Source: Arcuatula senhousia (taxonomy: Eukaryota > Mollusca > Bivalvia > Mytilida > Mytilidae). Taken from it: a stretch of DNA of 64,000 nucleotides. The stretch's first letter is position 1; every line of letters begins with the position of its first letter. Below, piece by piece: positions 347 to 21,750 of the stretch. The notes beneath the pieces were generated by a model that had not been told where the DNA came from, made no database searches, and saw only the letters and a list, made by a program, of their open reading frames with translations. A program made the position numbers and the translations under genes. The stretch is from contig OZ020304.1 in NCBI GenBank assembly GCA_963971305.1, forward strand, positions 2,356,001 through 2,420,000, written 5' to 3'.

Positions 347-805
347 AACTAGCTATAATTTGTGTTGGGATGCCAACACACAAGTCGCCCAAAATCGCCT
401 TGGATACTTTTTCTTCCCATTCAGTACAATAAAATATGTATAGAAATCAAATTTCATTGAAATCGGAAAAAGTTCACATTTTTAAGGGGGGCGGGTGTAG
501 TAAAATGGCCGCCATTTTGAAACCGGAAGTCAGATTTCAAATCTGGTCGCAGATTTGAATTCAGCATACCCGCTTTACCCAGGTTACCAATTTTCAAGAC
601 GATCCGATGAAAAAAAAATTTCCGCCCACTTTTTCCGACGGCCGCCATTTTGAAACGGCGGCCATCTTGAAATTTTCAAAACTTGATTACACGCCTTTGA
701 GTGACCCACTATCCAATCCAACAAGTGTTATTCAATTTCCTTGAACCGTTTTCTTGTATTAGGGAGGACAACTTTACGATAAAGAATCAGAAGAATAATA
801 ATAAT
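347..805 (+). repeat. Family A array unit 1
   Basis: Starts AACTAGCTATAATT, then a perfect 7-bp hairpin GTGTTGG-GATG-CCAACAC (362-379), then head arm AAGTCGCCCAAAA (382-394). The body has paired GGCCGCCATTTTGAAA motifs and ends GAAGAATAATAATAATAA. The apparent reading frame on the minus strand starting MAAVGKSGRK is a by-product of the GGCCGCCAT motif, not a gene. Confidence 0.85.
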
Positions 806-1259
806 AACTAGCTATAATTTGTGTTGGGATGCCAACACACAAGTCGCCCAAAATCGCCTTGGATACTTTTTCTCCCCATTCAGTACAATAAAATATGTAT
901 AGAAATCAAATTTCATTGAAATCGGACAAAGTTCACTTTTTTTTAGGGGGGCGGGTGTAGTAAAATGGCCGCCATTTTGAAACCGGAAGTCAGATTTCAA
1001 ATCTGGTCGCAGATTTGAATTCAGCATACCCACTTTACCCAGATGACCAATTTTCAAGACGATCCGATGAAAAAAAAATTTCCGCCCACTTTTTCCGACG
1101 GCCGCCATTTTGAAACGGCGGCCATCTTGAAAATTTCAAAACTTGATTACACGCCTTTGGGTGACCCACTATCCAATCCAACAAGTGTTATTCAATTTCC
1201 TTGAACCGTTTTCTTGTATTAGGGAGGACAACTTTACGATAAAGAATCAGAAGAATAAT
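806..1259 (+). repeat. Family A array unit 2
   Basis: Near copy of unit 1: hairpin at 821-838, head arm at 841-853, same body, ends in an AAT tract with no tail module. Confidence 0.85.
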
Positions 1260-1746
1260 AACTAGGTATAATTGTGTTGGGATGCCAACACACAAGTCGC
1301 CCAAAATCGCCTTGGATAGAGTTCCATTCAAATCAGTGCATCAAAATAAGTCTAGAAATCAAATTTCGTTGAAATCGGACAAAGTTGACGTTTTTAGGGG
1401 GGCGGGTGTAGTAAAATGGCCGCCATTTTGAAACCGGAAGTCGGATTTCAAATCCGGTCGCAGATTTGAGCTCAGCATACCCACTTTACCCAGATGACCA
1501 ATTTTCAAGACGATCCGATGAAAAAAAAATTTCCGCCCACTTTTTCCGATGGCCGCCATTTTGAAACGGCGGCCATCTTGAAAATTTTAAAAGTGCATTA
1601 CACAACTTTGAGTGACCCACTATCCAATCTCACAAGTGTTATTGAATTTCCTTGGACCGTTTTCTTGTATTAGGGAGGACAAATTCTCGATAAAGAATCA
1701 GAAGAATAATAATAATAATAAGAAAAATAATAATAATAATAATAAT
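1260..1746 (+). repeat. Family A array unit 3
   Basis: Head hairpin 1274-1291, head arm 1294-1306. The body is as in unit 1 and ends in a long interrupted AAT tract that leads into an A-type tail. Together with that tail it is a candidate complete element: head, body, microsatellite, tail. Confidence 0.85.
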
Positions 1747-1797
1747 AAGAAACGGTGCAAAAACAATAAGTCTCCCAAACTTTGTTTTGGGCGACTT
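1747..1797 (+). repeat. Tail module, A type
   Basis: Leader AAGAAACGGTGCAAAAACAAT, then a hairpin at 1768-1797. The 3' arm TTTTGGGCGACTT is the exact reverse complement of the family A head arm. The 5' arm AAGTCTCCCAAA carries one mismatch (T for G at position 6). Confidence 0.85.
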
Positions 1798-1804
1798 AAT
1801 AATA

Positions 1805-2409
1805 ATTAAAAATAATCGTGTTGGGATGCCAACACACAAGTCGCCCAAAATCGCCTTTAGATAGTATTCCATTCAATTCTGTGCATCAAAATATGCCTAG
1901 AAATCAAATTTCATTGAAATCCGACCACTTTGAAAATTTGCTGATATTTGGCCGCCATTTTGAAACGGCGGCCATTTAGAAAATTTCCAAACTTCTTGCA
2001 CAACTTCAGATGGTGCTTAATCACTCTGCAAAGTTTCATTAATCTCATTCAAAGCATGTCAGACTATACCCTCGGACAAAATTGATGATTTTTCATGGGG
2101 GGGCGGGTGTTGTAACATGGCCACCATTTTTAAACGAAAGCTCGGACAAAAATTCTAATTCCAGATTTGAGATAAGGACACCCCATTTACCCTTAGATAT
2201 CATTTTGAAGACGATCCGATAAATATTTCTCGATGTTACTATTTTTAGAACGGCAGCCATTTTGAAATGGCGGCCATTTTGACACATTTGTCCGACCACT
2301 GCAACCCCGCTTTTGATGATCTATATGTGTGCCAAATATCAAGCCCCTGTCTCGCTCACTGTTACGGCAATTCTCCGGAAAAGTAACTGTTAAGAAGAAT
2401 AATAATAAT
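1805..2409 (+). repeat. Family A' array unit (long variant)
   Basis: Uses the family A head (hairpin 1818-1835, then AAGTCGCCCAAAA) after TTAAAAATAATC, but a longer body of about 600 bp with several GGCCGCCATTTTGAAA motifs. Ends GAAGAATAATAATAATA. Confidence 0.8.
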
Positions 2410-3407
2410 AACTAGAATTGCCATTGCCAGCAATAGCAGATGTCGACCGTTGCCTTATCTTTTACGACATATTTGACACTGTTGGCAGCCATTTTAATGA
2501 TTTTTTAATATTTGACTCCATATTCCCACTCGCCATCCTTCAAACACCCTAAGATATCAAGTTTCGTTAAAATCTGAGAAGTTTCAATAATTACGGAATT
2601 GGCGGCCATTTTGAATTTTTTAGAATTTTTGGACTCGCCATCATTTGAAACTCCTAAATATAAAGTTTCGTTAAAATCGGAGAATGTTCACTTTTTACGG
2701 AAAATGGCGGCCATTTTGAATTTTTCGACATTTCTGACCTCGCGTATCAACTCGCCATCCTTCATATTCCTTAAATAAAAAGTTTCGTTAAAATCGGAGA
2801 ATGTTCAATTTTTACGGGAAATGGCGGCCATTTTGAAATTTTTGAATCGGTCATCCTTGAAAACTCTTAAAAATAAAATCTTGTTAAAATTTTGAAAAAA
2901 AAAAATTGGAAGTGGCGGCCATTTTGAATTTTTTGAACTTTTTGAACTCGCCATCCTATGAAACACCTAAATATAAATTTTCGTGGAAATCAAAATTTTT
3001 TTCATTTTTACAGGAAGTGGCGGCCATTTTGAATTTTTCGACATTTCTTACTCCGCGTATGAACTCGCCATCCTTCATATACCTTAAATATAAAGTTTCG
3101 TTAAAATCGGAGAATGTTCAATTTTTATGGGAAATGGTGGCCATTTTGAATCTTTCGACATTTTTTTCGTCACGCCTCAACTCGCCATACTATAATATGG
3201 CTTTAAATAAATTTTTGTTCAAATCAGAAAACGCGACTTTTTTTACGTAAAATGGCGGCCATCTTGAAAATGGCAGCCATCTTGGTTCTGAAAAGTTCTA
3301 CTGCAACAGATATCATGATCACGTATCATCATACCAAGTTTGGAACCGCAATATAAAACGGTTCTTTAGTAATGACGCGGACAAAAATTGGCGACAATAA
3401 GAATAAT
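2410..3407 (+). repeat. Family C array unit 1
   Basis: Head AACTAGAATTGCCATTGCC contains the stem ATTGC/GCAAT and then the head arm ATGTCGACCG. The body is about eight monomers of 100-115 bp, each with AACTCGCCATCC, a stretch like AAAGTTTCGTTAAAATCGG and GGCGGCCATTTTGAAT. It leads into a C-type tail. Confidence 0.85.
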
Positions 3408-3471
3408 AATGAAAAAAAATAAACGCGACAATAACAATATGTCTACCGAATAACTGCGTTTCGGTCGACAT
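3408..3471 (+). repeat. Tail module, C type
   Basis: Leader AATGAAAAAAAATAAACGCG then ACAATAACAAT; hairpin 3439-3471 with arms ATGTCTACCGAA and TTCGGTCGACAT. The 3' arm contains CGGTCGACAT, exact reverse complement of the family C head arm. One T/G difference at position 6 of the 5' arm makes a mismatch. Confidence 0.85.
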
Positions 3472-3480
3472 AATAATAAT

Positions 3481-4512
3481 AACTAGAATTGCCATTGCCA
3501 GCAATAGCAGATGTCGACCGTTGCCTTATCTTTTGCGACATATTTGACACTGTCGGCAGCCATTTTATTGATTTTTTTTATTTTTGACTCCATATTCCCA
3601 CTCGCCATCCTTCAAACACCTAAAATATCAAGTTTCGTTAAAATCTGAGAATTTTCAATAATTACGGAAGTGGCGGCCATTTTGAATTTTTTTGAATTTT
3701 TTAACTCGCCATCATTTGAAACTCCTAAATATAAAGTTTCATTTAAATCTCATAATGTTCACTTTTTACGGAAAATGGCGGCCATTTTGAATTTTTCGAC
3801 ATTTCTGACCTCGCGTATAAACTCGCCATCCTTCATATTCCTTAAATATAAAGTTTCGTTAAAATCGAAGAATGTTCAATTTTTACGGGAAATGGCGGCC
3901 ATTTTGAATTTTTTGAAATTTTTGAATCGGTCATCCTTCAAAACTCTTAAAAATAAAATTTCGTTAAAATTTTGAAAAAAAAAAAAATTTTGGAAGTGGC
4001 GGCCATTTTGAATTTTTTGAAATTTTTGAACTCGCCATCCTTCGAAAAACCTAAATATAAATTTTCGTAGAATTCGGAAAATTTTTCATTTTTACAGGAA
4101 GTGGCGGCCATTTTGAATATTTCGACATTTCTTACTCTGCGTATGAACTCGCCATCCTTCATATACCTTAAATATAAAGTTTCATTAAAATCGGAGAATG
4201 TTCAATTTTTACGGGAAATGGCGGCCATTTTGAATTTTTCGACATTTTTTTCATCACGCCTCAACTCGCCATCCTATAATATTGCGTAATATAAATTTTT
4301 GTTTCAATCAGAAAACACAACTTTTTTTACGTAAAATGGCGGCCATCTTTGAAATGGCAGCCATCTTGGTTGCGAAAATTTCTACCGCAACAGATATCAT
4401 GATCACGTATCATCATACCAAGTTTGGAACCACAATATAAAACGGTTCTTTAGTTATGATGTGGACAATAATTGGCGACAATAAGAATAAGAATAATAAG
4501 AATAAGAATAAG
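3481..4512 (+). repeat. Family C array unit 2
   Basis: Same head and monomer plan as C unit 1, diverged by several percent. Ends in a mixed AATAAG tract without a tail module. Confidence 0.85.
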
Positions 4513-5611
4513 AACTAGAATTGCCATTGCCAGCAATAGCAGATGTCGACCGTTGCCTTATCTTTTACGACATATTTGACACTGTCGGCAGCCATTTTAA
4601 TGATTTTTTTAATATTTGACTCTATATTCCCACTCGCCATCCTTCTAACACCTAAAATATCAAGTTTTGTTAAAATCTGAGAATTTTCAATAATGAATAT
4701 GGCGGCCATTTTGAATTTTTTTTGGAATTTTTGAACTCGCCATCATTTGAAACTCCTAAATATAAAGTTTCGTTAAAATCAGAGAATGTTCACTTTTAAG
4801 GAAAATGGCGGCCATTTTGAATTTTTTGACATTTCTGACCTCGCATATCAACTCGCCGTCCTTCATATTCCTTAAATATAAAGTTTCGTTAAAATCGGAG
4901 AATGTTCAATTTTTACGGGAAATGGCGGCCATTTTGAATTTTTTGAAATTTTTGAATGGGTCATCCTTCAAAACTCTTAAAAATAAAATTTCGTTAAAAT
5001 TTTGAAAAAAAAAATTTGGAAGTGGCGGCCATTTTGAATTTTTTGAACTTTTTGAACTCGCCATCCTTTGAAACACCTAAATATAAATTTTCTTGGAAAT
5101 CGGAAAATTTTTCATTTTTAAAGGAAGTGGCGGCCATTTTGAATTTTTCGACATTTCTTACTCCGCGTATGAACTCGCCATCCTTCATATACCTTAAATA
5201 TAAAGTTTCGTTAAAATCGGAGAATGTTCAATTTTTACGGGAAATGGCGGCCATTTTGAATTTTTCGACATTTTTTTCGTCACGCCTCAACTCACCATCC
5301 TATAATATAGCGTAAAATAAATTTTTGTTTCAATCAGAAAACGCGACTTTTTTTACGTAAAATGGCGGCCATCTTTGAAATGGCAGCCATCTTGGTTGCG
5401 AAAATTTCTACCGCAACAGATATCATGATCACGTATCATCATACCAAGTTTGGATCCGCAATATAAAACGGTTCAGGAGTTATGGTTTGGACTAAAATTG
5501 GCGACAATAAGAATAATAAGAATAAGAATAATAAGAATAAGAATAATAATGAAAAAAAATAAACGCGACAATAACAATATGTCTACCGAATAACTGCGTT
5601 TCGGTCGACAT
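4513..5611 (+). repeat. Family C array unit 3 (with tail 5548-5611)
   Basis: Head, eight monomers, AATAAG tract and a C-type tail with hairpin 5579-5611. Nearly identical to the next unit at a spacing of 1,099 bp, so the duplication is recent. The tail is followed at once by the next head with no AAT spacer. Confidence 0.88.
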
Positions 5612-6716
5612 AACTAGAATTGCCATTGCCAGCAATAGCAGATGTCGACCGTTGCCTTATCTTTTACGACATATTTGACACTGTCGGCAGCCATTTTAAT
5701 GATTTTTTTAATATTTGACTCTATATTCCCACTCGCCATCCTTCTAACACCTAAAATATCAAGTTTTGTTAAAATCTGAGAATTTTCAATAATGAATATG
5801 GCGGCCATTTTGAATTTTTTTTGGAATTTTTGAACTCGCCATCATTTGAAACTCCTAAATATAAAGTTTCGTTAAAATCAGAGAATGTTCACTTTTAAGG
5901 AAAATGGCGGCCATTTTGAATTTTTCGACATTTCTGACCTCGCATATCAACTCGCCGTCCTTCATATTCCTTAAATATAAAGTTTCGTTAAAATCGGAGA
6001 ATGTTCAATTTTTACGGGAAATGGCGGCCATTTTGAATTTTTTGAAATTTTTGAATGGGTCATCCTTCAAAACTCTTAAAAATAAAATTTCGTTAAAATT
6101 TTGAAAAAAAAAATTTGGAAGTGGCGGCCATTTTGAATTTTTTGAACTTTTTGAACTCGCCATCCTTTGAAACACCTAAATATAAATTTTCTTGGAAATC
6201 GGAAAATTTTTCATTTTTAAAGGAAGTGGCGGCCATTTTGAATTTTTCGACATTTCTTACTCCGCGTATGAACTCGCCATCCTTCATATACCTTAAATAT
6301 AAAGTTTCGTTAAAATCGGAGAATGTTCAATTTTTACGGGAAATGGCGGCCATTTTGAATTTTTCGACATTTTTTTCGTCACGCCTCAACTCACCATCCT
6401 ATAATATAGCGTAAAATAAATTTTTGTTTCAATCAGAAAACGCGACTTTTTTTACGTAAAATGGCGGCCATCTTTGAAATGGCAGCCATCTTGGTTGCGA
6501 AAATTTCTACCGCAACAGATATCATGATCACGTATCATCATACCAAGTTTGGATCCGCAATATAAAACGGTTCAGGAGTTATGGTTTGGACTAAAATTGG
6601 CGACAATAAGAATAATAAGAATAAGAATAATAAGAATAAGAATAATAATGAAAAAAAATAAACGCGACAATAACAATATGTCTACCGAATAACTGCGTTT
6701 CGGTCGACATAATAAG
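5612..6716 (+). repeat. Family C array unit 4 (with tail 6647-6710)
   Basis: Near-identical copy of C unit 3, spaced 1,105 bp from C unit 5. C-type tail hairpin at 6678-6710. Confidence 0.88.
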
Positions 6717-7988
6717 AACTAGAATTGCCATTGCCAGCAATAGCAGATGTCGACCGTTGCCTTATCTTTTACGACATATTTGACACTGTCGGCAGCCATT
6801 TTAATGATTTTTTTAATATTTGACTCTATATTCCCACTCGCCATCCTTCTAACACCTAAAATATCAAGTTTTGTTAAAATCTGAGAATTTTCAATAATGA
6901 ATATGGCGGCCATTTTGAATTTTTTTTGGAATTTTTGAACTCGCCATCATTTGAAACTCCTAAATATAAAGTTTCGTTAAAATCAGAGAATGTTCACTTT
7001 TAAGGAAAATGGCGGCCATTTTGAATTTTTCGACATTTCTGACCTCGCATATCAACTCGCCGTCCTTCATATTCCTTAAATATAAAGTTTCGTTAAAATC
7101 GGAGAATGTTCAATTTTTACGGGAAATGGCGGCCATTTTGAATTTTTTGAAATTTTTGAATGGGTCATCCTTCAAAACTCTTAAAAATAAAATTTCGTTA
7201 AAATTTTGAAAAAAAAAATTTGGAAGTGGCGGCCATTTTGAATTTTTTGAACTTTTTGAACTCGCCATCCTTTGAAACACCTAAATATAAATTTTCTTGG
7301 AAATCGGAAAATTTTTCATTTTTAAAGGAAGTGGCGGCCATTTTGAATTTTTCGACATTTCTTACTCCGCGTATGAACTCGCCATCCTTCATATACCTTA
7401 AATATAAAGTTTCGTTAAAATCGGAGAATGTTCAATTTTTACGGGAAATGGCGGCCATTTTGAATTTTTCGACATTTTTTTCGTCACGCCTCAACTCACC
7501 ATCCTATAATATAGCGTAAAATAAATTTTTGTTTCAATCAGAAAACGCGACTTTTTTTACGTAAAATGGCGGCCATCTTTGAAATGGCAGCCATCTTGGT
7601 TGCGAAAATTTCTACCGCAACAGATATCATGATCACGTATCATCATACCAAGTTTGGATCCGCAATATAAAACGGTTCAGGAGTTATGGTTTGGACTAAA
7701 ATTGGCGACAATAAGAATAATAAGAATAAGAATAATAAGAATAAGAATAATAATGAAAAAAAATAAACGCGACAATAACAATATGTCTACCGAATAACTG
7801 CGTTTCGGTCGACATAATAAGAATAAGAATAAGAATAATAATAATGAAAAAAAATAAACGCGACAATAACAATATGTCTACCGAATAACTGCGTTTCGGT
7901 CGACATAATAATAATAATAATAATAATGAAAAAAAATAAACGCGACAATAACAATATGTCTACCGAATAACTGCGTTTCGGTCGACAT
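6717..7988 (+). repeat. Family C array unit 5 with three tails
   Basis: Near-identical copy of C units 3 and 4, followed by three consecutive C-type tails with hairpins at 7783-7815, 7874-7906 and 7956-7988, separated by AAT/AATAAG tracts. The third and second tails appear as extra copies added to the unit end. Confidence 0.88.
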
Positions 7989-9034
7989 AATAAGGGCTAA
8001 TTTTCCATGTATTTGTGGTCCGATCTTCATGAAACTTGGTAATAAGGTAGACCTTAGGCTAATGTACTACATAATAAAAAAATTCAGCAAATTGAGACTC
8101 TAAAAAGGGCTATAGGGGTGTCAAAAAGGGGCCAGAAGGGCCTCCAAAACATAATGATTTCACACTAAAATCCATTTATATTGTAATTTGTTCATCCTAT
8201 GGATATGAAATATGCATTTTATAAAAAGACTATTGTGTACCTGACTAAGATATGGCATGTGTTTTAATGTATGAGCTAAAATGGGCAATTAAAGGGGCCC
8301 AAAATAGCATACAGTCACTTTTGCTAAACCGAACAAATGGAAATAAGTAAAAAACTGTATAATGGATATCGTTTAAACTGACATTAAATTTGTAGGTCTT
8401 TTTAAGCTGCATACATAAAATTAAGTTTCTTTCATGTACACGTAAATATTGATTTTACATAATTTTTTTAGATTTTTTTTGGGTTTTTTTTTTGTGAGGT
8501 TAAGTTTTTTTTTTTTTAGGGGGGGGGTTAAGTTTTTTTTTTTACTCGCCTAAACTTGCCATCATTTAAAACTCTTAAATAAAAAATTTGGTTAAAATCG
8601 GAGAATGTTGAAATTATACCGGAAGTGGCGGCCATTTTGTATTTTTGAACTTTTTGAACCCGCCATCTTTCGAAACTCTTAAATATAAAATTTCATCAAA
8701 ATCTGAAATTTTAAAAAAATTTACAGGAAGTGGCGGCCATTTTGAATTTTTCAAAATTTTTGACTCCGCGCCCCAACTCGCCATCCTTTAAAACTCCTAG
8801 ATATCAATTTTTATTAAAATCAGAGAACGTTTAAAATTTTTTACCGTAATGGCGGCCATTTTGAAATCTGAAATTGTCCATTCCGCCCGTGAAGAGCAGC
8901 CATCTTGGTTCCGCGAAGTTTCACTGCAACAGATATCATGATGACGTATCATCCTACCAAGTTTTGATCCGTACTATAAAACTGTTCTATAGTAGAGTTC
9001 CGGACAAATATTTAGTCGGAAGAATAATAATAAT
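7989..9034 (+). repeat. Family E composite unit, copy 1
   Basis: Begins GGGCTAATTTTCCATG without an obvious head hairpin. It contains a GGGGCC-rich section, long T runs near 8,480-8,540, and then C-like monomers with GTGGCGGCCATTTTG. Ends AGTCGGAAGAATAATAATAA. Probably two fused units. Repeated almost exactly at 10,216-11,261. Confidence 0.8.
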
Positions 9035-10215
9035 AACTAGAATTGCCATTGCCAGCAATAGCAGATGTCGACCGTTGCCTTATCTTTTACGACATATTTG
9101 ACACTGTCGGCAGCCATTTTAATGATTTTTTTAATATTTGACTCTATATTCCCACTCGCCATCCTTCTAACACCTAAAATATCAAGTTTTGTTAAAATCT
9201 GAGAATTTTCAATAATGAATATGGCGGCCATTTTGAATTTTTTTTGGAATTTTTGAACTCGCCATCATTTGAAACTCCTAAATATAAAGTTTCGTTAAAA
9301 TCAGAGAATGTTCACTTTTAAGGAAAATGGCGGCCATTTTGAATTTTTCGACATTTCTGACCTCGCATATCAACTCGCCGTCCTTCATATTCCTTAAATA
9401 TAAAGTTTCGTTAAAATCGGAGAATGTTCAATTTTTACGGGAAATGGCGGCCATTTTGAATTTTTTGAAATTTTTGAATGGGTCATCCTTCAAAACTCTT
9501 AAAAATAAAATTTCGTTAAAATTTTGAAAAAAAAAATTTGGAAGTGGCGGCCATTTTGAATTTTTTGAACTTTTTGAACTCGCCATCCTTTGAAACACCT
9601 AAATATAAATTTTCTTGGAAATCGGAAAATTTTTCATTTTTAAAGGAAGTGGCGGCCATTTTGAATTTTTCGACATTTCTTACTCCGCGTATGAACTCGC
9701 CATCCTTCATATACCTTAAATATAAAGTTTCGTTAAAATCGGAGAATGTTCAATTTTTACGGGAAATGGCGGCCATTTTGAATTTTTCGACATTTTTTTC
9801 GTCACGCCTCAACTCACCATCCTATAATATAGCGTAAAATAAATTTTTGTTTCAATCAGAAAACGCGACTTTTTTTACGTAAAATGGCGGCCATCTTTGA
9901 AATGGCAGCCATCTTGGTTGCGAAAATTTCTACCGCAACAGATATCATGATCACGTATCATCATACCAAGTTTGGATCCGCAATATAAAACGGTTCAGGA
10001 GTTATGGTTTGGACTAAAATTGGCGACAATAAGAATAATAAGAATAAGAATAATAAGAATAAGAATAATAATGAAAAAAAATAAACGCGACAATAACAAT
10101 ATGTCTACCGAATAACTGCGTTTCGGTCGACATAATAATAATAATAATAATAATGAAAAAAAATAAACGCGACAATAACAATATGTCTACCGAATAACTG
10201 CGTTTCGGTCGACAT
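9035..10215 (+). repeat. Family C array unit 6 with two tails
   Basis: Near-identical copy of C unit 5, 2,318 bp downstream. Two C-type tails with hairpins 10101-10133 and 10183-10215; one tail fewer than C unit 5 explains most of the length difference between the two C-E blocks. Confidence 0.88.
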
Positions 10216-11261
10216 AATAAGGGCTAATTTTCCATGTATTTGTGGTCCGATCTTCATGAAACTTGGTAATAAGGTAGACCTTAGGCTAATGTACTACATA
10301 ATAAAAAAATTCAGCAAATTGAGACTCTAAAAAGGGCTATAGGGGTGTCAAAAAGGGGCCAGAAGGGCCTCCAAAACATAATGATTTCACACTAAAATCC
10401 ATTTATATTGTAATTTGTTCATCCTATGGATATGAAATATGCATTTTATAAAAAGACTATTGTGTACCTGACTAAGATATGGCATGTGTTTTAATGTATG
10501 AGCTAAAATGGGCAATTAAAGGGGCCCAAAATAGCATACAGTCACTTTTGCTAAACCGAACAAATGGAAATAAGTAAAAAACTGTATAATGGATATCGTT
10601 TAAACTGACATTAAATTTGTAGGTCTTTTTAAGCTGCATACATAAAATTAAGTTTCTTTCATGTACACGTAAATATTGATTTTACATAATTTTTTTAGAT
10701 TTTTTTTGGGTTTTTTTTTTGTGAGGTTAAGTTTTTTTTTTTTTAGGGGGGGGGTTAAGTTTTTTTTTTTACTCGCCTAAACTTGCCATCATTTAAAACT
10801 CTTAAATAAAAAATTTGGTTAAAATCGGAGAATGTTGAAATTATACCGGAAGTGGCGGCCATTTTGTATTTTTGAACTTTTTGAACCCGCCATCTTTCGA
10901 AACTCTTAAATATAAAATTTCATCAAAATCTGAAATTTAAAAAAAATTTACAGGAAGTGGCGGCCATTTTGAATTTTTCAAAATTTTTGACTCCGCGCCC
11001 CAACTCGCCATCCTTTAAAACTCCTAGATATCAATTTTTATTAAAATCAGAGAACGTTTAAAATTTTTTACCGTAATGGCGGCCATTTTGAAATCTGAAA
11101 TTGTCCATTCCGCCCGTGAAGAGCAGCCATCTTGGTTCCGCGAAGTTTCACTGCAACAGATATCATGATGACGTATCATCCTACCAAGTTTTGATCCGTA
11201 CTATAAAACTGTTCTATAGTAGAGTTCCGGACAAATATTTAGTCGGAAGAATAATAATAAT
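10216..11261 (+). repeat. Family E composite unit, copy 2
   Basis: Near-identical copy of 7,989-9,034. With C unit 6 it forms the second copy of a 2.2-2.3 kb higher-order repeat. Confidence 0.8.
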
Positions 11262-12176
11262 AATTAAAGTGCCATTTGTTCCGAGAACAAATGAGAGGTC
11301 TTTCCCGTTAAGTTGACCTTTGACCTTTAACCTTTGTCTTAAAGTCAAGCTCTTCAATTACTGATAAATATATATATATACTTGCTATATTATCTGTAAC
11401 CGTTTAAATGTTATATACAAGTAAATAATGCATTGGATAATGTTTTGGCCGCCATTTTGAAACCAGTCAACCGTTACATGTACTTCTTGGGCTTAAATGA
11501 TAGGTCTTGTCAAGACGGTCATTTTCTATACACATGTCTATTATACTATCTGTTAAGGTTTTCAAGTTATTGGCAAAAAACGTATTTCGCGAAAACCTGT
11601 TTCGGCCGCCATTTCGAAACCGCTCAACCGAATCATGCACTGTTTGGACTCAAATTGTAGGTCTTTTCAAGACAATCATTTTTTGTTCATATTTTGTCTA
11701 TACTATCTCTAACGGTTTTCGAGTTATAAGCAAAAAACCATTTGACGACCGCCATTTTGGCAATGGTAAACGCAAAAAAAATTTTGACCACAGATTCGTG
11801 ATCAGGACCCTCATATCTACCTGGAAACCAAATTTCATCAAAATCGGACAATTTTTACATTTTGCGCCAAGTTTGCGCCATACGCGCGCAACCAGGAAGT
11901 AAATTACAGCATTCTTTTTGCATGATAAATCATCACCAGGATGTAAGCTACCATTTCCATAAAACAGAATCTTGTTAACTATTACCGTTTCTGAGCTTAC
12001 CTGATAACAAGGGTAAACAGCGTTTTGCGCGATTGCGCCAAAATTATAAAGAGTTGGCGCTCACAGGGTTAACCTTGTCGATTCCTGGTAGTGTTGAATA
12101 AGTGTGCCAAATTTCGTTAAGATCGGTCAAAAAACTTTTTGCTCACGAGCGGCAGAAAAAAAAGAATAATAATAAT
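11262..12176 (+). repeat. Family D array unit 1
   Basis: Head AATTAAAGTGC, then a perfect 9-bp hairpin CATTTGTTC-CGA-GAACAAATG (11273-11293), then head arm AGGTCTTTCCC (11296-11306). The body includes TGACCTTTGACCTTT, two GGCCGCCATTT motifs and GGTTTTCGAGTTAT. Ends GAATAATAATAATAATT. Confidence 0.85.
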
Positions 12177-13099
12177 AATTAAAGTGCCATTTGTTCAGAG
12201 AACAAATGAGAGGTCTTTCCCGTTAAGTTGACCTTTGACCTTTGACCTTTGTCTTAAAGTCTAGCTCTTTAATTACTGAAAAAAAATATATATACATTTA
12301 CTATATTATCTGTAACCGTTTAAATGTTATATACAGGTAAATAATGCATAAGATGATGTTTTTGGCCGCCATTTTGAAACCAGTCAACCGTAACATGTAC
12401 TTATTGGGCTTAAATGATAGGTCTTGTCAAGACGGTCATTTTTTATACACATGTCTATTATACAATCTTTTACGGTTTTCAAGTTATTGGCAAAAAACCT
12501 ATTTCGCGAAAACCTGTTTCGGCCGCCATTTCGAAATCGCTCAACCGAATCATGCACTGTTTGGACTCAAATTGTAGGTCTTTTCAAGACGATCATTTTT
12601 TGTTCATATATTGTCTATACTATCTCTTACGGTTTTCGAGTTATAAGTAAAAAACCATTTGACGACCGCCATTTTGGCAATGGTAAACGCAAAAAAAATT
12701 TTGACCACAGATTCGTAATCAGCAACCTTAAATTAACCTGGAAACCAAATTTCATCAAAATCGGACAATTTTTACATTTTGCGCCAAGTTTGCGCCATAT
12801 GCGCGCAACCAGGAAGTAAATTACAGCGTTTTTTTTGCATGATAAATCATCCCCAGGATGTAAGCTACCATTTGCACTAAACAGAATCTTGATAACTATT
12901 ACCGTTTTTGAGCTCACCTGATAACAAGGGTAAACAGCGTTTTGCGCGATTGCGCCAAAACTATAAAGAGCTGGCGCTCACAGGGTTAACCTTGTCGATT
13001 CCTGGCAGTGCTGAATAAGTGTGCCAAATTTCGTTAAGATCGGTCAAGAAACTTTTTGCTCACGAGCAGCAGAAAAAAAAGAATAATAATAATAATAAT
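12177..13099 (+). repeat. Family D array unit 2
   Basis: Copy of D unit 1, several percent diverged: hairpin 12188-12208, head arm 12211-12221. It runs through an AAT tract into two D-type tails. Confidence 0.85.
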
Positions 13100-13203
13100 A
13101 GGCATAACGAAATCAATAAGGTCTTCCCTTTGGAAAGGGAAAGACCTTAATAATAGGCAGAACGAAATCAATAAGGTCTTCCCTTTGGAAAGGGAAAGAC
13201 CTT
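13100..13203 (+). repeat. Two D-type tail modules
   Basis: Each has leader AGGCATAACGAAATCAAT (or AGGCAGAACG...) and a hairpin (13118-13148, 13173-13203) with arms AAGGTCTTCCCTTT and AAAGGGAAAGACCTT. The 3' arm contains GGGAAAGACCT, exact reverse complement of the D head arm. The 5' arm lacks one T, giving a one-base bulge. Confidence 0.85.
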
Positions 13204-13221
13204 AATAATAATAATAATAAT

Positions 13222-13285
13222 AATGAAAAAAAATAAACGCGACAATAACAATATGTCTACCGAATAACTGCGTTTCGGTCGACAT
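13222..13285 (+). repeat. Tail module, C type (orphan)
   Basis: Complete C-type leader and hairpin (13253-13285) placed after D tails, without a family C body beside it. Confidence 0.85.
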
Positions 13286-13288
13286 AAT

Positions 13289-13402
13289 AAGAAACGGGGT
13301 AAAAACAATAAGTCGCCAAAACTTAGTTTTGGGCGACTTAATAATAATAATAAGAAACGGTGCAAAAACAATAAGTCTCCCAAACTTTGTTTTGGGCGAC
13401 TT
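13289..13402 (+). repeat. Two A-type tail modules
   Basis: Hairpins 13310-13339 and 13373-13402. The first has 5' arm AAGTCGCCAAAA, one C short of a perfect partner for TTTTGGGCGACTT (a bulge). The second carries the T/G mismatch form. Confidence 0.85.
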
Positions 13403-13408
13403 AATAAT

Positions 13409-13860: not shown

Positions 13861-14314
13861 AACTAGCTATAATTTGTGTTGGGATGCCAACACATAAGTC
13901 GCCCAAAATCGCCTTGGATACTATTTCTTCCCATTCAGTACAATAAAATATGTATAGAAATCAAATTTCATTGAAATCGGACAAAGTTCACATTTTTAAG
14001 GGGGCGGTTGTAGTAAAATGGCCGCCATTTTGAAACCATAGGTCGGATTTCAAATCCGGTCGCAGATTTAAACTCAGCATACCTGCTTTACCCAGATGAC
14101 CCATTTTCAAGAGGATCCGATGAAAAAAAAAAATTCCGCCCACTTTTTCAAATGGCCGCCATTTTGAAACGGCGGCCATGTTGAAAAAATCAAACGCACC
14201 TGCAAAACTTTGGATGATGGTCTACAACTTTGCCAAGTTTTGTTGATCGAACTCAAAAATCCTAGGACTAGTTATTAGGACAAGTTCAAGGGTAATAAAA
14301 GGAATAATAATAAT
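13861..14314 (+). repeat. Family A array unit 6
   Basis: Head hairpin 13875-13892; head arm has TAAGTCGCCC. The 3' third differs from A units 1-3 (CCTAGGACTAGTTATTAGGA). Confidence 0.85.
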
Positions 14315-14774
14315 AACTAGCTATAATTTGTGTTGGGATGCCAACACACAAGTCGCCCAAAATCGCCTTGGATACTGTTTCTTCCCATTCAGTACAATGA
14401 AATATGTATAGAAATCAAATTTCATTGAAATTGGACAAAGTTCATTTTTAAGGGGGCGGGTATAGTAAAATGGTCGCCATTTTGAAACCGGATGTCGGAT
14501 TTCAAATCCGGTCGCAGATTTGGGTTCAGCATACCCGCTTCACCCAGATGACCAATTTTCAAGACGATCTGATGAAAAAAAAATTTCCGCCCACTTTTTC
14601 CGATGGCCGCCATTTTGAAACGGTGGCCATCTTGAAAAAATCCAATGCACCTGCAAAACTTCATATGATGTTCTATCATTGTACCAAGTTTCAATGATGT
14701 TACTCAAAAATCCTAGGACTAGTTCTTAGGACAAGTTCAAGGAGTATAAAAGGAAAAATAATAATAAGAATAAT
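14315..14774 (+). repeat. Family A array unit 7
   Basis: Head hairpin 14331-14348 and body as in A unit 6; ends in mixed AATAAG repeats. Confidence 0.85.
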
Positions 14775-14891
14775 AAGAAACGGGGTAAAAACAATAAGTC
14801 GCCAAAACTTTGTTTTGGGCGACTTAATAATAAGAATAATAAGAAACGGGGTAAAAACAATAAGTCGCCAAAACTTTGTTTTGGGCGACTT
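14775..14891 (+). repeat. Two A-type tail modules
   Basis: Leader AAGAAACGGGGTAAAAACAAT; hairpins 14796-14825 and 14862-14891, both with the bulged 5' arm AAGTCGCCAAAA. Confidence 0.85.
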
Positions 14892-14900
14892 AATAATAAT

Positions 14901-15393
14901 AACAAGTGCTGACTGTGTTGGGGATGCCCAACACAAAAATGTCTCCCAAACGAACTCATTTTTGACATCATATTCTGATTCGCCACCTTTTAAAACCCCT
15001 AAATACAAAATTTTATCAATATGGAAGCATGTTGATGATTTTCGCATTTTCGGGCCCGAAAAATCACATTTTCGCAAATAACTCGAAAACCGTAAATATC
15101 GCTTCGGAATTTTTTTCCGTATTATTGAAGAGCTCCTTTTGCTCTATTCACCTACAAAATTTCAGCCTCCTACGCACCTAGGTTACCGAGATATTGCAAT
15201 GTCCTATATTATGAACTTTCGCCAATTACACGGAAACGGCAGCCATTTTAAAATTTTTTATAAGTCCCTCAACAACTCTAGTAACCCATCTACCTTCCTA
15301 CAATGTTTCGTTAAAATCCTTCAAGGCGTTTTGAAGAAAAGGTACGGACACGTTCATGGCGGGAGAAAGAAGAAAAAGAATAATAATAATAAT
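14901..15393 (+). repeat. Family B array unit 1
   Basis: Starts AACAAGTGCTGAC, then a perfect 9-bp hairpin TGTGTTGGG-GATG-CCCAACACA (14914-14935), then head arm ATGTCTCCCAAACG (14939-14952). The body contains TTTTCGCAAATAACTCGAAA and CACCTAGGTTACCGAGATAT. Ends in a purine-rich run and AATAATAATAATAA. Confidence 0.87.
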
Positions 15394-15881
15394 AACAAGT
15401 GCTGACTGTGTTGGGGATGCCCAACACAAAAATGTCTCCCAAACGAACCCATTTTTGACCTCGTATTATGATTCGCCATCTTTTAAAACACCTACATACA
15501 AAATTTTGTCGAAATCGAAGCATTTTGACGATTTTCGCATTTTTGGGCCCGAAAAATCACATTTTCGCAAATAACTCGAAAACCGTAAACATCGCTTCAA
15601 ATTTTTTTTTCGTATTATTGATGAGCTCCCTTTGCTCTATTCACCTACAAAATTTCAGCCTCATACGCACCTAGGTAACCGAGATATTGCAATGTCCTAT
15701 ATTATGAACTTTCGCCAATTACACGGAAACGGCGGCCATTTTGTAATTTTTGAAAAGTCCGTCAACAACTTCAGTAACCGATCTACCTTCCTACAATGTT
15801 TCGTGTGAATCCCCCTATGCGTTTGAGAGAAAACTACCGGACAAGTTCATGGCGGGAGGAAAGAAGAAAAAGAATAATAAT
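15394..15881 (+). repeat. Family B array unit 2
   Basis: Copy of B unit 1; hairpin 15407-15428. No tail module. Confidence 0.87.
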
Positions 15882-16358
15882 AACAAGTGCTGACTGTGTT
15901 GGGGATGCCCAACACAAAAATGTCTCCCAAACGAACCCATTTTTGACCTCGTATTATGATTCGCCATCTTTTAAAACCCCAAGATACAAAATTTTGTCGA
16001 AATCGAAGCATTTTGACGATTTTCGCATTTTTGGGCCCGAAAAATCACATTTTCGCAAATAACTCGAAAACCGTAAATATCGCTTCAAAATTTTTTTTCG
16101 TATTATTAAAGAGCTCCTTTTGCTCTATTCACCTACAAAATTTCAGCCTCCTACGCACCTAGGTTACCGAGATATTGCAATGTCCTATATTATGAACTTT
16201 CGCCAATTACACGGAAACGGCAGCCATTTTGAAATTTTTTAAAAGTCCCTCCGCAACTCTAGTAACCCATCTACCTTCCTACAATGTTTCGTTAAAATCC
16301 TTCGAGGCGTTTTGAAGAAACGGTACGGACACGTTCATGGCGGGAGAAAGAAGAAAAA

Positions 16359-16389
<31 letters not shown>
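15882..16389 (+). repeat. Family B array unit 3
   Basis: Copy of B unit 1; hairpin 15895-15916. A long AAT tract leads into two B tails, making a candidate complete element. Confidence 0.87.
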
Positions 16390-16391
<2 letters not shown>

Positions 16392-16492
16392 GAAACAGAG
16401 TAAAAACAATATGTCTCCAAACTTTCGTTTGGGAGACATAATAAGAAACAGAGTAAAAACAATATGTCTCCAAACTTTCGTTTGGGAGACAT
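16390..16492 (+). repeat. Two B-type tail modules
   Basis: Leader AAGAAACAGAGTAAAAACAAT; hairpins 16411-16439 and 16464-16492. The 3' arm CGTTTGGGAGACAT is the exact 14-nt reverse complement of the B head arm. The 5' arm ATGTCTCCAAAC lacks one C, leaving a bulge. Confidence 0.87.
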
Positions 16493-16495
16493 AAT

Positions 16496-16984
16496 AACTA
16501 GTGCTGACTGTGTTGGGGATGCCCAACACAAAAATGTCTCCCAAACGAACCCATTTTTGACCTCGTATTAAGATTCGCCATCTTTTAAAACCCCTACATA
16601 CAAAATTTTGTCGAAATCGAAGCATTTTGACGATTTTCGCATTTTTGGGCCCGAAAAATCACATTTTCGCAAATAACTCGAAAACCGTAAACATCGCTTC
16701 AAAATTTTTTTTCGTATTATTGATGAGCTCCCTTTGCTCTATTCACCTACAAAATTTCAGCCTCCTACGCACCTAGGTAACCGAGATATTGCAATGTCCT
16801 ATATTATGAACTTTCGCCAATTACACGGAAACGGCGGCCATTTTGTAATTTTTGAAAAGTCCGTCAACAACTTCAGTAACCGATCTACCTTCCTACAATG
16901 TTTCGTGTGAATCCCCCTATGCGTTTGAGAGAAAACTACCGGACAAGTTCATGGCGGGAGGAAAGAAGAAAAAGAATAATAATA
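16496..16984 (+). repeat. Family B array unit 4
   Basis: Copy of B unit 2 with AACTAGTGCTGAC at its start; hairpin 16509-16530. Confidence 0.87.
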
Positions 16985-17588
16985 ATTAAAAATAATCGTG
17001 TTGGGATGCCAACACACAAGTCGCCCAAAATCGCTTTTAGATAGTATTCCATTCAATTCTGTGCATCAAAATATGCCTAGAAATCAAATTTCGTTGAAAT
17101 CCGGCCACTTTGAAAATTTTCCGATTTTTGGCCGCCATTTTGAAACGGCGGCCATTTTGAAAATTTCCAAACTTCTTGCACAACTTCAGATGATGCTTTA
17201 TCACTCTGCAAAGTTTCATTAATCTCATTCAAAGCATGTCAGACTAAACCTTCGGACAAAATTGATGATTTTTCATGGGGGGCGGGTGTATTTACATGGC
17301 CGCCATTTTGGAACGGAAGCTCGGATAAAAATTCTGATTCCAGATTTGAGATGAGAACACCCCATTTACCCTTAGATATCATTTTGAAGATGATTCGATA
17401 AATATTTCTCGATGTTACTATTTTTAGAACGGCAGCCATTTTGAAATGGCGGCCATTTTGACACATTTGTCTGATCTCTGCAACCCCGCTTTAGATGATC
17501 TATATGTGTGCCAAATATCAAGCCCCTATCTCAATCACTGCTACGGCAATCTTCCGGAAAAGTAACTGTTAAGAAGAATAATAATAAT
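16985..17588 (+). repeat. Family A' array unit, copy 2
   Basis: Copy of the long variant at 1,805-2,409: A-type head hairpin 16998-17015, the same two-part body, the same AAGAAGAATAATAATAATAA end. Confidence 0.82.
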
Positions 17589-18620
17589 AACTAGAATTGC
17601 CATTGCCAGCAATAGCAGATGTCGACCGTTGCCTTATCTTTTACGACATATTTGACACTGTCGGCAGCCATTTTAATGATTTTTTTAATATTTGACTCCA
17701 TATTCCCACTCGTCATCCTTCAAACACCTAAAATATCAAGTTTCGTTAAAATCTGAGAATTTTCAATAATTACGGAAGTGGCGGCCACTTTGATTTTTTG
17801 GGAATTTTTTAACTCGCCATCAATTGAAACTCCTAAATATAAAGTTTCGTTAAAATCAGAGAATGTTCACTTTTTACGGAAAATGGCGGCCATTTTGAAT
17901 TTTTCGACATTTCTGACCTCGCGTATCAACTCGCCATCCTTCAAATTCCTTAAATATAAAGTTTCGTTAAAATCGGAGAATGTTCAATTTTCACGGGAAA
18001 TGGCGGCCATTTTGAATTTTTTGAAATTTTTGAATCGGTCATCCTTGAAAACTCTTAAAAATAAATTTCGTTAAAATTTTGAAAAAAAAAATTTTTGGAA
18101 GTGGCGGCCATTTTGAATTTTTTTAACTTTTTTAACTCGGCATCCTTTGAAACACCTAAATATAAATTTTCGTCGAAATCTGAAAATTTTTCATTTTTAC
18201 AGGAAGTGGCGGCCATTTTGAATATTTCGACATTTCTTACTCCGCGTATGAACTCGCCATCCTTCATATACCTTAAATATAAAGTTTCGTTAAAATCGGA
18301 GAATGTTCAATTTTTACGGGAAATGGCGGCCATTTTGAATTTTTCGACATTTTTTTCGTCACGCCTCAACTCGCCATCCTATAATATTGCGTAATATAAA
18401 TTTTTGTTTCAATCAGAAAAAGCGACTTTTTTTACGTAAAATGGCGGCCATCTTTGAAATGGCAGCCATCTTGGTTGCGAAAAGTTCTACCGCAACAGAT
18501 ATCATGATCACGTATCATCATACCAAGTTTGGAACCGCAATATAAAACGGTTCTTTAGTTATGATGTGGACAATAATTGGCGACAATAAGAATAAGAATA
18601 ATAAGAATAAGAATAATAAT
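17589..18620 (+). repeat. Family C array unit 7
   Basis: Same plan as C unit 2; diverged from the 4.5-10.2 kb copies. As at 2,410, it directly follows an A' unit, so the A'-C pair at 1.8-3.5 kb and 17.0-18.7 kb is itself a duplicated block. Confidence 0.85.
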
Positions 18621-18797
18621 AATGAAAAAAAATAAACGCGACAATAACAATATGTCTACCGAATAACTGCGTTTCGGTCGACATAATAATAATAAGAAAC
18701 GGGGTAAAAACAATAAGTCGCCAAAACTTAGTTTTGGGCGACTTAATAAGAAACAGAGTAAAAACAATATGTCTCCAAACTTTCGTTTGGGAGACAT
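18621..18797 (+). repeat. Three tail modules in a row: C, A, B types
   Basis: C-type hairpin 18652-18684, A-type 18715-18744 (bulged form), B-type 18769-18797. Tails of three families lie side by side with only AAT spacers, showing that tails move or duplicate independently of bodies. Confidence 0.85.
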
Positions 18798-18800
18798 AAT

Positions 18801-19288
18801 AACAAGTGCTGACTGTGTTGGGGATGCCCAACACAAAAATGTCTCCCAAACGAACCCATTTTTGACCTCGTATTATGATTCGCCATCTTTTAAAACACCT
18901 ACATACAAAATTTTGTCGAAATCGAAGCATTTTGACGATTTTCGCATTTTTGGGCCCGAAAAATCACATTTTCGCAAATAACTCGAAAACCGTAAACATC
19001 GCTTCAAATTTTTTTTTCGTATTATTGATGAGCTCCCTTTGCTCTATTCACCTACAAAATTTCAGCCTCATACGCACCTAGGTAACCGAGATATTGCAAT
19101 GTCCTATATTATGAACTTTCGCCAATTACACGGAAACGGCGGCCATTTTGTAATTTTTGAAAAGTCCGTCAACAACTTCAGTAACCGATCTACCTTCCTA
19201 CAATGTTTCGTGTGAATCCCCCTATGCGTTTGAGAGAAAACTACCGGACAAGTTCATGGCGGGAGGAAAGAAGAAAAAGAATAATAAT
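18801..19288 (+). repeat. Family B array unit 5
   Basis: Copy of B unit 2; hairpin 18814-18835. Confidence 0.87.
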
Positions 19289-19773
19289 AACAAGTGCTGA
19301 CTGTGTTGGGGATGCCCAACACAAAAATGTCTCCCAAACGAACCCATTTTTGACCTCGTATTATGATTCGCCATCTTTTAAAACACCTACATACAAAATT
19401 TTGTCGAAATCGAAGCATTTTGACGATTTTCGCATTTTTGAGCCCGAAAAATCACATTTTCGCAAATAACTCGAAAACCGTAAACATCGCTTCAAATTTT
19501 TTTTTCGTATTATTGATGAGCTCCCTTTGCTCTATTCACCTACAAAATTTCAGCCTCATACGCACCTAGGTAACCGAGATATTGCAATGTCCTATATTAT
19601 GAACTTTCGCCAATTACACGGAAACGGCGGCCATTTTGTAATTTTTGAAAAGTCCGTCAACAACTTCAGTAACCGATCTACCTTCCTACAATGTTTCGTG
19701 TGAATCCCCCTATGCGTTTGAGAGAAAACTACCGGACAAGTTCATGGCGGGAGGAAAGAAGAAAAAGAATAAT
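19289..19773 (+). repeat. Family B array unit 6
   Basis: Almost identical to B unit 5; hairpin 19302-19323. Confidence 0.87.
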
Positions 19774-20250
19774 AACAAGTGCTGACTGTGTTGGGGATGC
19801 CCAACACAAAAATGTCTCCCAAACGAACCCATTTTTGACCTCGTAATATGATTCGCCATCTTTTAAAACCCCTAGATACAAAATTATGTCGATATCGGAG
19901 CATTTTGACGCTTTTCGCATTTTCGTGCCCGAAAAATCACATTTTCGCAAATAACTCGAAAACCGTAAATATCGCTTCAAAATTTTTTGTCGTATTATTG
20001 AAGAGCTCCTTTTGCTCTATTCACCTACAAAATTTCAGCCTCCTACGCACCTAGGTTACCGAGATATTGCAATGTCCTATATTATGAACTTTCGCCAATT
20101 TCACGGAAACGGCAGCCATTTTGAAATTTTTTAAAAGTCCCTCCGCAACTCTAGTAACCCATCTACCTTCCTACAATGTTTCGTTAAAATCCTTCGAGGC
20201 GTTTTGAAGAAACGGTACGGACACGTTCATGGCGGGAGAAAGAAGAAAAA

Positions 20251-20284
<34 letters not shown>
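19774..20284 (+). repeat. Family B array unit 7
   Basis: Copy of B unit 3; hairpin 19787-19808; a long AAT tract leads into three B tails. Confidence 0.87.
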
Positions 20285-20286
<2 letters not shown>

Positions 20287-20512
20287 GAAACAGAGTAAAA
20301 ACAATATGTCTCCAAACTTTCGTTTGGGAGACATAATAATAAGAAACAGAGTAAAAACAATATGTCTCCAAACTTTCGTTTGGGAGACATAATAATAATA
20401 ATAAGAAACAGAGTAAAAACAATATGTCTCCAAACTTTCGTTTGGGAGACATAATAATAATAAGAAACGGTGCAAAAACAATAAGTCTCCCAAACTTTGT
20501 TTTGGGCGACTT
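20285..20512 (+). repeat. Four tail modules: three B, one A
   Basis: B hairpins 20306-20334, 20362-20390, 20424-20452, then an A hairpin 20483-20512. Leaders and AAT spacers are as in the other tails. This ends the main array. Confidence 0.87.
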
Positions 20513-21458
20513 AATAATAATATGATAATGGCTCTGCCCTAAAAGCTCGCGAAGATACAAAATCAATATAATAGGTGCAACCAAAACTAGGTTTAACCTT
20601 AATTGGATCTGAAAAAATGTCAAAATACCCTCGACTGGATCAATAGCTAAGAGGGTCCACTTTTGGATAAGAATTTAATAATTTATTTGAAAAAAAATGT
20701 ATTATCCGAAAAAACGCCAAGATATGGTTTGCGGCCGGGACAACATCATCCATAACTTAATCGACCCTTCAGTCACATCATATCAATCGACAAGCAGACG
20801 ACATCAAAATGTCACCGCTCTTCTGCCAGGTTTTGTTATATTATTTGTATACCCGTATCTATAATTGCCAAGTACTGTCTGCAAAAAATTGACTTAGAAA
20901 CCTGGTGGAAAATGACGACGTATCCAAATGAACATTTAACTTTGTCAGTTTGAGGGACCACAGAGGATAAGGATGGATTAGGATTTTATTTTCAGATCAG
21001 GTAGGACCAAATTATCATACATATGTAGAAAAACAGTTGCTGATCACTAAATATTTTAATGAATCTGTGTTATGAAAAGTTCCGAAATTTGATTGACAGA
21101 ACTCCCACCATTTTTCTGCGCATGACTATGCATTATGGGTAAAAGGTCACGAATTCTCGCGAGAGAAAGCCATATTTCTGTAAAAACAAAACAACTAGTG
21201 TTCGTTCGTTAGATAGTTATTATTTATTGAGAAAGTTATTGTCATTAACAACAAGAAAAGGTTTTGTTTTGTTACCGTTTGTAAATAAATAAGTGAAAAT
21301 AAAAAATCTCGCTAACGCGAGACCCGGTATTTTCGTAAATTCCCAATGCATTCCGAGAAGCGAGACAGAATTTATTTTCAACCATCGTATTTTGAGTCTC
21401 GTGCAATTTGGCAGACTCTGTACAATAGTGAGCTTCGCTTCGCTCGCATAATAATAAT
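20513..21458. other. Non-array spacer, possible promoter-like stretch
   Basis: About 950 bp with no array unit and no exon that I can support. It holds the palindrome TCTCGCGAGA at 21,155-21,164, a known core-promoter motif of many animal housekeeping genes, preceded by ATTATGGGTAAAAGGTCACG. At 21,307-21,322 there is a hairpin TCTCGC-TAAC-GCGAGA, and at 21,430-21,450 a self-complementary GAGCTTCGCTTCGCTC next to the next AAT tract; this pair may be the head and tail of a further small element. The PCID2 5' exons were sought here and not found. Confidence 0.4.
21155..21164. promoter_or_regulatory. TCTCGCGAGA palindrome
   Basis: Perfect 10-bp palindrome matching a motif known from TATA-less animal promoters. 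It lies about 1.3 kb before the first visible PCID2 exon, but no transcript start can be shown. Confidence 0.35.
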
Positions 21459-21750
21459 AAGAAACGGTGCAAAAACAATAAGTCTCCCAAACTTCGTTTT
21501 GGGCGACTTAATAATAAGAAACAGAGTAAAAACAATATATCTCCCAAACATAGTGTTTGGGAGATATAATAAGAAACGGTGCAAAAACAATAAGTCTCCC
21601 AAACTTTGTTTTGGGCGACTTAATAATAATAAGAAACGGTGCAAAAACAATAAGTCTCCCAAACTTTGTTTTGGGCGACTTAATAATAATAATAATAATA
21701 AGAAACGGTGCAAAAACAATAAGTCTCCCAAACTTTGTTTTGGGCGACTT
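21459..21750 (+). repeat. Five tail modules: A, B, A, A, A
   Basis: Hairpins at 21480-21509 (A), 21537-21567 (B, perfect-stem variant also seen at 316), 21592-21621, 21652-21681 and 21721-21750 (A). No unit body is present, so this is a free-standing cluster of tails in AAT repeats. Confidence 0.87.

Follow-up and report, generated by a model that had tools for sequence, protein, structure and literature searches.

The window analysed here is a stretch of 64,000 nucleotides from the bivalve Arcuatula senhousia (contig OZ020304.1 of assembly GCA_963971305.1, positions 2,356,001 to 2,420,000), and part of it is crowded with repeat units of two kinds, termed heads and tails, that are set in AAT microsatellite. 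This raises the question as to whether heads and tails are parts of the same elements, what those elements are, and how units of several families came to be interspersed. The explanation that we favour is that the repeats are very probably nested, non-autonomous DINE-1/HINE (Helentron/Helitron2-like) elements on the minus strand, with at least five end families. The whole nest occupies 349..21750 (minus strand) and seems to continue past the left edge of the window.

Heads and tails carry matching arms

Exact searches of the plus strand found 24 heads and 29 tails in families A to D (8 heads and 11 tails for A, 7 and 6 for B, 7 and 10 for C, 2 and 2 for D), with every exact match of an arm lying in the expected head or tail context. 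In all four families the head arm is the reverse complement of the tail arm. A preliminary description, made from the letters alone, had proposed four complementary arm pairs and a head-tail match in every family, and both proposals are borne out by these counts. A fifth arm type, b, was read from the sequence in two tails, near 331 and 21554; no b-type head was seen in the window.

To put the lengths of the matches in perspective, six end pairs were compared with 400 base shuffles each. The longest exact complements are 13, 13, 13, 14, 10 and 11 nt, compared with shuffle means of 5.2–5.5 nt and shuffle maxima, pair by pair, of 8, 11, 9, 9, 10 and 10 nt. The A and B complements stand clear of these maxima, while the 10 nt of C only equal the maximum of its own shuffles and the 11 nt of D lie one above theirs. 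Folding heads and tails together, as the preliminary description had recommended, gave predicted duplex energies of -13.6 to -18.0 kcal/mol where the arms of the two ends are cognate vs. -3.2 to -10.5 kcal/mol where they are not.

The elements lie on the minus strand

The tail is the 5' end and the head the 3' end of elements on the minus strand, which is the reverse of the polarity first proposed. A plus-strand reading with the head as the 5' end was dropped, since only the minus strand gives the published order of CTAG/T, hairpin and both subTIRs. Read along the minus strand, a tail reads TTA/WGTC..., with the subTIR arm, a partial inverted repeat and, after a short segment specific to each family, an ATT tract; a head consists of the subTIR, a hairpin and then CTAG, CTTG or TTAA, with TT following it. 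The body carries repeated AAAATGGCYGCC units and lies between (ATT)n and the 3'-subTIR. The 5' ends begin with WGTC, WATC or AGGTC. The 3' terminal letters are CTAG in 14, CTTG in 6 and TTAA in 4 of the 24 ends; D and A' termini (A' being a subtype of A) are TTAA and B termini are CTTG in 6/7, which is not CTRR.

A separate hairpin beside the head arm is present in each family, 7–12 nt from the 3' end in the six ends folded, but that of C is weak (z = -1.0, with 32 of 200 shuffles folding as well). The tail arm does lie within a hairpin, formed by the subTIR and the neighbouring inverted repeat; this hairpin is perfect in the folded b end and has a mismatch or bulge in the folded ends of A, A', B, C and D. 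Among these ends, the match between the two subTIRs has been preserved more strictly than the 5' hairpin.

In all 11 uninterrupted elements that were inspected, an AAT/AAG tract lies between body and 5' segment. The A element at 1262..1797 (all coordinates of elements refer to the minus strand) shows the complete layout, with its 3' end CTAG at 1262, the 3' subTIR at 1294-1306, an ATT microsatellite at about 1705-1750, and then the 5' inverted repeat and the 5' subTIR at 1785-1797. The C element at 2412..3471 has its 3' end at 2412, its 3' subTIR at 2440-2449 and its 5' subTIR at 3462-3471. Two further uninterrupted elements are nested in members of their own families: a D element at 12179..13147 within D 11264-13202, and a B element at 15884..16439 within B 15396-16492.

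This anatomy is that of DINE-1/HINE elements, for which subTIRs, an inverted repeat near the 5' subTIR, a microsatellite, a 3' stem-loop and a T-rich target are described in the portions of the literature considered (PMC4067079, PMC7492417, PMC2374699). The earlier guess of a non-autonomous Helentron-type element thus holds as to the component parts, which match DINE-1/HINE, and fails as to their polarity. Set against the approximately 11–15 bp of DINE-1/HINE subTIRs, those of A (13), B (14) and D (11) are exact matches within the range and that of C (10) is one short. The ends do not follow the canonical Helitron1 set of 5'-TC, 3'-CTRR and an A/T target, of which the A/T flank is compatible.

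The elements lie in ATT tracts in a single orientation

All 24 3' ends are followed by TT, and in 22 of them the plus strand has AATAA or AAGAA directly alongside; the ends at 382 and 5642 instead abut the 5' end of another element with only AA between. TTA precedes each of 31 5' ends, and the sequence before the arm is TTATT or TATTA in 29 of these and TAGTT, the end of a neighbouring element, in 2. The ATT tracts agree with the T-rich or TT insertion of DINE-1/HINE elements, with flanks that fit both A/TT and T/A breaks, and insertion inside a microsatellite hides any target-site change. On the plus strand, AAT/AAG tracts account for 4.6% of the sequence in 1-21752 vs. 0.6% of the rest of the window, and no AAT-type tract of at least 14 bases occurs on that strand beyond 21700. 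The other strand has 56 short tracts with 351 bases.

All heads and tails that were found have a single orientation, with the element strand along the T-rich strand. As an A/T rule alone would permit both orientations in an AAT tract, it is probably the T-rich strand itself that is read at insertion.

Heads and tails are ordered like brackets

If newcomers had inserted into older copies, heads and tails should be ordered like opening and closing brackets. The largest non-crossing matching within families pairs 23 of the 24 heads. Three kinds of shuffle were used for comparison; with 300 of each, at most 19, 19 and 20 heads found a partner. When the order is instead resolved as a strict stack, 19 pairs close, and the three kinds of shuffle (2000 each) yield no more than 11, 10 and 14. 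Treating the A subtypes as families and the E units, described below, as C heads gives 25 matches for 26 heads, vs. a maximum of 19 in 1000 shuffles, and the subtyped matching without E gives 23/24 heads, also with a shuffle maximum of 19. The parse reaches a nesting depth of up to five elements enclosing one.

The subtypes of family A follow the same order. A tails carry GGTGC or GGGGT, and CTTTG, CTTAG or CTTCG, and A bodies fall in three groups by their ends (grouped by eye). Body and tail subtypes agree in 8/8 matched pairs: the CAGAAG body with a GGTGC tail in 4/4, the AAAAGG body with GGGGT/CTTTG in 2/2, and A' with GGGGT/CTTAG in 2/2. One A' element, at 1806..13339, contains some 11 kb of C, E and D elements within its microsatellite and is closed at 13327 by a 5' end of the CTTAG subtype. 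The clearest nested case is a run at 16498..18797 that reads B(A'(C C)A')B), with heads B 16534, A' 17018 and C 17619 followed by tails C 18675, A 18732 and B 18784; the closing A 18732 is of the A' subtype.

The E units are relatives of C by sequence and are paired with C tails by the parse. The right part of E1 (7995..9012) is 70-80% identical to C bodies, with no recognised 3' subTIR, and E2 (10222..11242) repeats E1 at 99.9% identity. In the parse the two are closed by the C-type 5' ends at 10206 and 13276, of which E2 takes 13276. The left ~540 bp of E1/E2 resembles nothing else within the window. We considered E1/E2 as foreign inserts and dropped this, the right part aligning to C bodies; on their sequence, the two read as C-type elements of which the 3' end was probably lost or replaced.

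The parse leaves one head (B 14939) and six tails (b 331, C 7979, b 21554, A 21609, A 21669 and A 21738) unmatched. Only two of these are internal anomalies, namely head B 14939 without a tail and tail C 7979 without a head. At the outer edge of the nest, 21485..21750, five 5' ends are stacked (A 21497, b 21554, A 21609, A 21669 and A 21738); the first of them is taken by the parse as the partner of head 382, and for the remaining four the window offers no head. The window start, judged by eye, falls in B-like sequence, which leads one to expect the heads belonging to these four tails and to b 331 further left, past the window edge. A segment close to the outer edge, at 20522-21450, has no other match in the window.

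Local duplication has contributed to the array

Several units are near-identical: C3 to C6 are 99.9-100% identical and B2 and B5 100%. Other copies are more diverged, with identities of 94-96% for C, 88-99.8% for B, 95% for D and 79-98% for A; A'1 and A'2 are 94% identical, and A' is 63-67% identical to A. The 99-100% identity of some C, E and B copies indicates that part of the array grew by local duplication. Local duplication also contributes to the uniform orientation of the units.

This raises the possibility that tandem growth accounts for the whole array, with the head-body and tail units as two satellite monomers in an AAT matrix that were shuffled by unequal exchange between microsatellites, in the absence of any transposition into the tract. 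The near-identical C, E and B copies are what such growth would produce, and C5-E1 and C6-E2 look like one block that was copied, the first with an extra C tail. Tandem growth does not lead one to expect mixed nests such as the A'- and C-containing run described above, nor the agreement of subtypes in pairs up to 21 kb apart. Moreover, the bracket counts exceed those of all shuffles even without the near-identical copies: with ten near-identical C/E rows dropped, 20 of 22 heads are matched (shuffle maximum 16), and with four identical B rows dropped too, 18 of 20 (shuffle maximum 14). The dropped rows included the tail that the full parse assigns to head 3511, so that one miss in the reduced sets is artificial. 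We therefore consider tandem growth on its own a very improbable account of the locus.

A second alternative is chimeric rolling-circle transposition alone, in which a transposition event is initiated at the 5' end of an outer element and terminates as soon as it meets the 3' end of an inner one. Such movement has been proposed for the FoHeli elements of Fusarium, where, in the part of that report considered, several 5' ends travel with one 3' end (PMC5148889). The stacked 5' ends at 16426/16479, at 20321/20377/20439 and at 21497-21738 are in line with this, and the unmatched tails could stem from it. On its own, however, it would not give stacked tails that mostly go with heads of the same family and subtype, in order, as is the case for 23 of the 24 heads, making it a highly improbable sole cause. 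It may well act in addition to nesting.

A further observation concerns recurring nested pairs. The junctions of A'1 with the C1 that it holds resemble those of A'2 with its C7, and B2 holding B3 resembles B6 holding B7. This is as expected of a composite moving as a unit, and these composites may have moved in this way.

A model for the growth of the nest

In the reading that we prefer, that of nested DINE-1/HINE-like elements, each element would run in the order 5'-subTIR, partial inverted repeat, (ATT)n, body, 3'-subTIR, hairpin and CTAG (or CTTG/TTAA)-3', and would insert in ATT tracts where the upstream sequence ends in A and the downstream sequence starts with TT. Because an ATT tract lies just inside each 5' end, a newcomer would land in an older copy with neither end damaged, and the newcomer's own tract would renew the target. 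Repeated landing would then build a nest with the order of brackets, each 3' end opening a pair that a 5' end later closes, and local duplication would have copied some units too. Nested insertion into the internal microsatellite would cut 5' ends from their bodies, so that the tails look free-standing. The preliminary description set such tails apart from the standard picture; given the bracket-like order of heads and tails, they need no separate origin. Transposition would presumably depend on the Rep/helicase of an autonomous partner outside our view, and the matching of the subTIRs could help to bring the two ends together, either by pairing or as twin protein-binding sites.

A bolder version of the model, which we regard as unlikely, is that selection has maintained the internal ATT tract as a landing pad: elements would target the T-rich strand of their own tract, and a safe site would thereby be common to all families, with no harm to the ends of other copies and with ordered nests as the outcome, which could move as composites.

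On the preferred reading, the order of the insertions can be read off the nest, in which the brackets give relative ages without a clock. They also link each 5' end to its own 3' end, so that co-variation of the arms can be tested within one locus. The locus offers a concrete way for a transposon to use its own microsatellite as a target and to spare other sequence, and it suggests to annotators of repeats that an isolated HINE end may be one half of an element that was split.

Comparison with known elements

Neither hairpin ends nor microsatellite targets are confined to Helitrons. An unrelated hairpin-ended class, e.g. an IS200/605-like single-strand transposon or an AAT-targeting retroelement with arms that act otherwise, is nonetheless scarcely credible here: a Mutator-like family does target TA microsatellites, according to the part of its description considered (PMC4486113), but subTIRs with a 5' partial inverted repeat, a 5'-proximal microsatellite, a 3' hairpin and CTAG/T make up the DINE-1/HINE/Hel-2 set, and a search of 1-22000 against Rfam, at gathering thresholds, was negative.

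The preliminary description held that placement in microsatellite is no part of the standard picture. This needs correction, since a microsatellite beside the 5' subTIR is a standard DINE-1/HINE feature in the published sections considered (PMC4067079, PMC7492417, PMC2374699, PMC4344730). Compared with the DINE-1/HINE elements in the excerpts of two of these papers (PMC4067079, PMC2374699), the elements in the window have an ATT microsatellite that is itself the insertion target, a 5' flank that ends in A, and CTAG at 14/24 3' ends. Cg_HINE of the oyster Crassostrea gigas (PMC7492417) in the available text shares the left module of 5' subTIR, complementary inverted repeat and microsatellite, as well as the right module with 3' subTIR and palindrome. 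Unlike the elements in the window, Cg_HINE has mostly 4-nt microsatellites and occurs in both orientations across the genome; its insertion into repeats and other transposable elements is reported, whereas that text does not describe its own microsatellite as a target. Oyster Helitron/Helentron loci likewise have truncated or tandemised Helitron parts within other Helitrons, but, as far as the relevant sections of that review go, lack an ordered nest and a microsatellite target (PMC12628747).

Similar relations exist outside molluscs. Lepidopteran Hel-2 elements (PMC4344730) share the 5'-IR, the subterminal inverted repeats, a microsatellite downstream of the 5' repeat, the 3' hairpin, the CTAG end and A/T flanks, and differ in their (CTGT)n microsatellite and 5'-TC end, with no nest described in the sections considered. 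The Helitron2-type FoHeli elements of Fusarium (PMC5148889) share ATIRs with hairpins, and self-insertion and surplus 5' termini are reported and modelled for them; they are fungal, and the portion of that report considered has one nested example and no ordered multi-family nest in a microsatellite. In a literature search on nested or microsatellite-targeting Helitrons, covering mostly open-access papers, no title or abstract described several families nested in order within the elements' own microsatellite. The elements themselves belong to a known kind and are ordinary; what stands out is the nest, which has formed in a landing site that the elements bring with them and has spared their termini. 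Insertion into a microsatellite as such is shared, to go by the title of a 2010 report by Coates et al., with Helitron-like elements of Lepidoptera, which are said to disrupt (GAAA)n microsatellites.

Coding content and sequence searches

The listed stop-to-stop open reading frames of the window, among which frames that run over its edges do not count, include none of the size of a Rep/helicase; the longest has 253 aa and is RT-like. Five of the 20 listed frames were compared with Pfam, which gave a SPRY match above the cut-off in one, five matches below the cut-off in another, and no match for the other three, the RT-like frame included.

DNA pattern scans of viral contigs for the C end, the A end and the shared 5' segment gave 0 matches. 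When genome contigs were scanned for the same 5' segment, a single locus was hit, L001, in a record labelled as coming from a symbiont of the mussel Bathymodiolus septemdierum; this contig is probably mussel DNA. L001 and the A/B 5' segment give 12 alignments of 31-53 bp with 82-97% identity, which consist in part of the search pattern itself. Beside the match, within an AAT tract, lies a 5'-type hairpin with different arms (z = -5.2).

Repeats and coding fragments in and around the nest

Within the nest of stacked DINE-1/HINE-like elements, a 0.9 kb unit, X, lies between A-type 5' ends (window 20522-21450), and no similarity to its sequence was found across the rest of the window. AAT tracts lie on either side of X, and a GCTTCGCTTCGCTCGC motif is present at its end. 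A 5'-type hairpin (a 5' subTIR arm plus a neighbouring partial inverted repeat) with arms of different sequence is found within an AAT tract at positions 29-75 of L001, a genome-contig locus matching the shared 5' segment. The L001 contig is recorded as a mussel symbiont and is probably host DNA within a bacterial assembly.

Outside the nest, two satellite-like arrays with units of about 130-150 bp, at 60208-61329 and, inverted relative to it, at 50823-51775, have a common flank (59936-60073 and 51638-51775), a further copy of which lies at 43266-43407; arrays and flank together perhaps represent another mobile family carrying repeats. Tandem arrays with a period near 174 bp are present at 61845-62807 and 31536-32183.

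A homologue search with an ORF fragment at 58807-59568 returned 1978 homologues (E <= 0.001); the fragment itself has no Pfam match at 0.01. Among the 120 matches listed, three are named, all "hypothetical protein", and one protein contains PF00078, a reverse transcriptase family; the fragment is possibly Penelope-like. Finally, an ORF at 43594-44031 (minus strand), possibly a host-gene exon, has a Pfam match to the SPRY domain (E 3.2e-6, above the SPRY cut-off).
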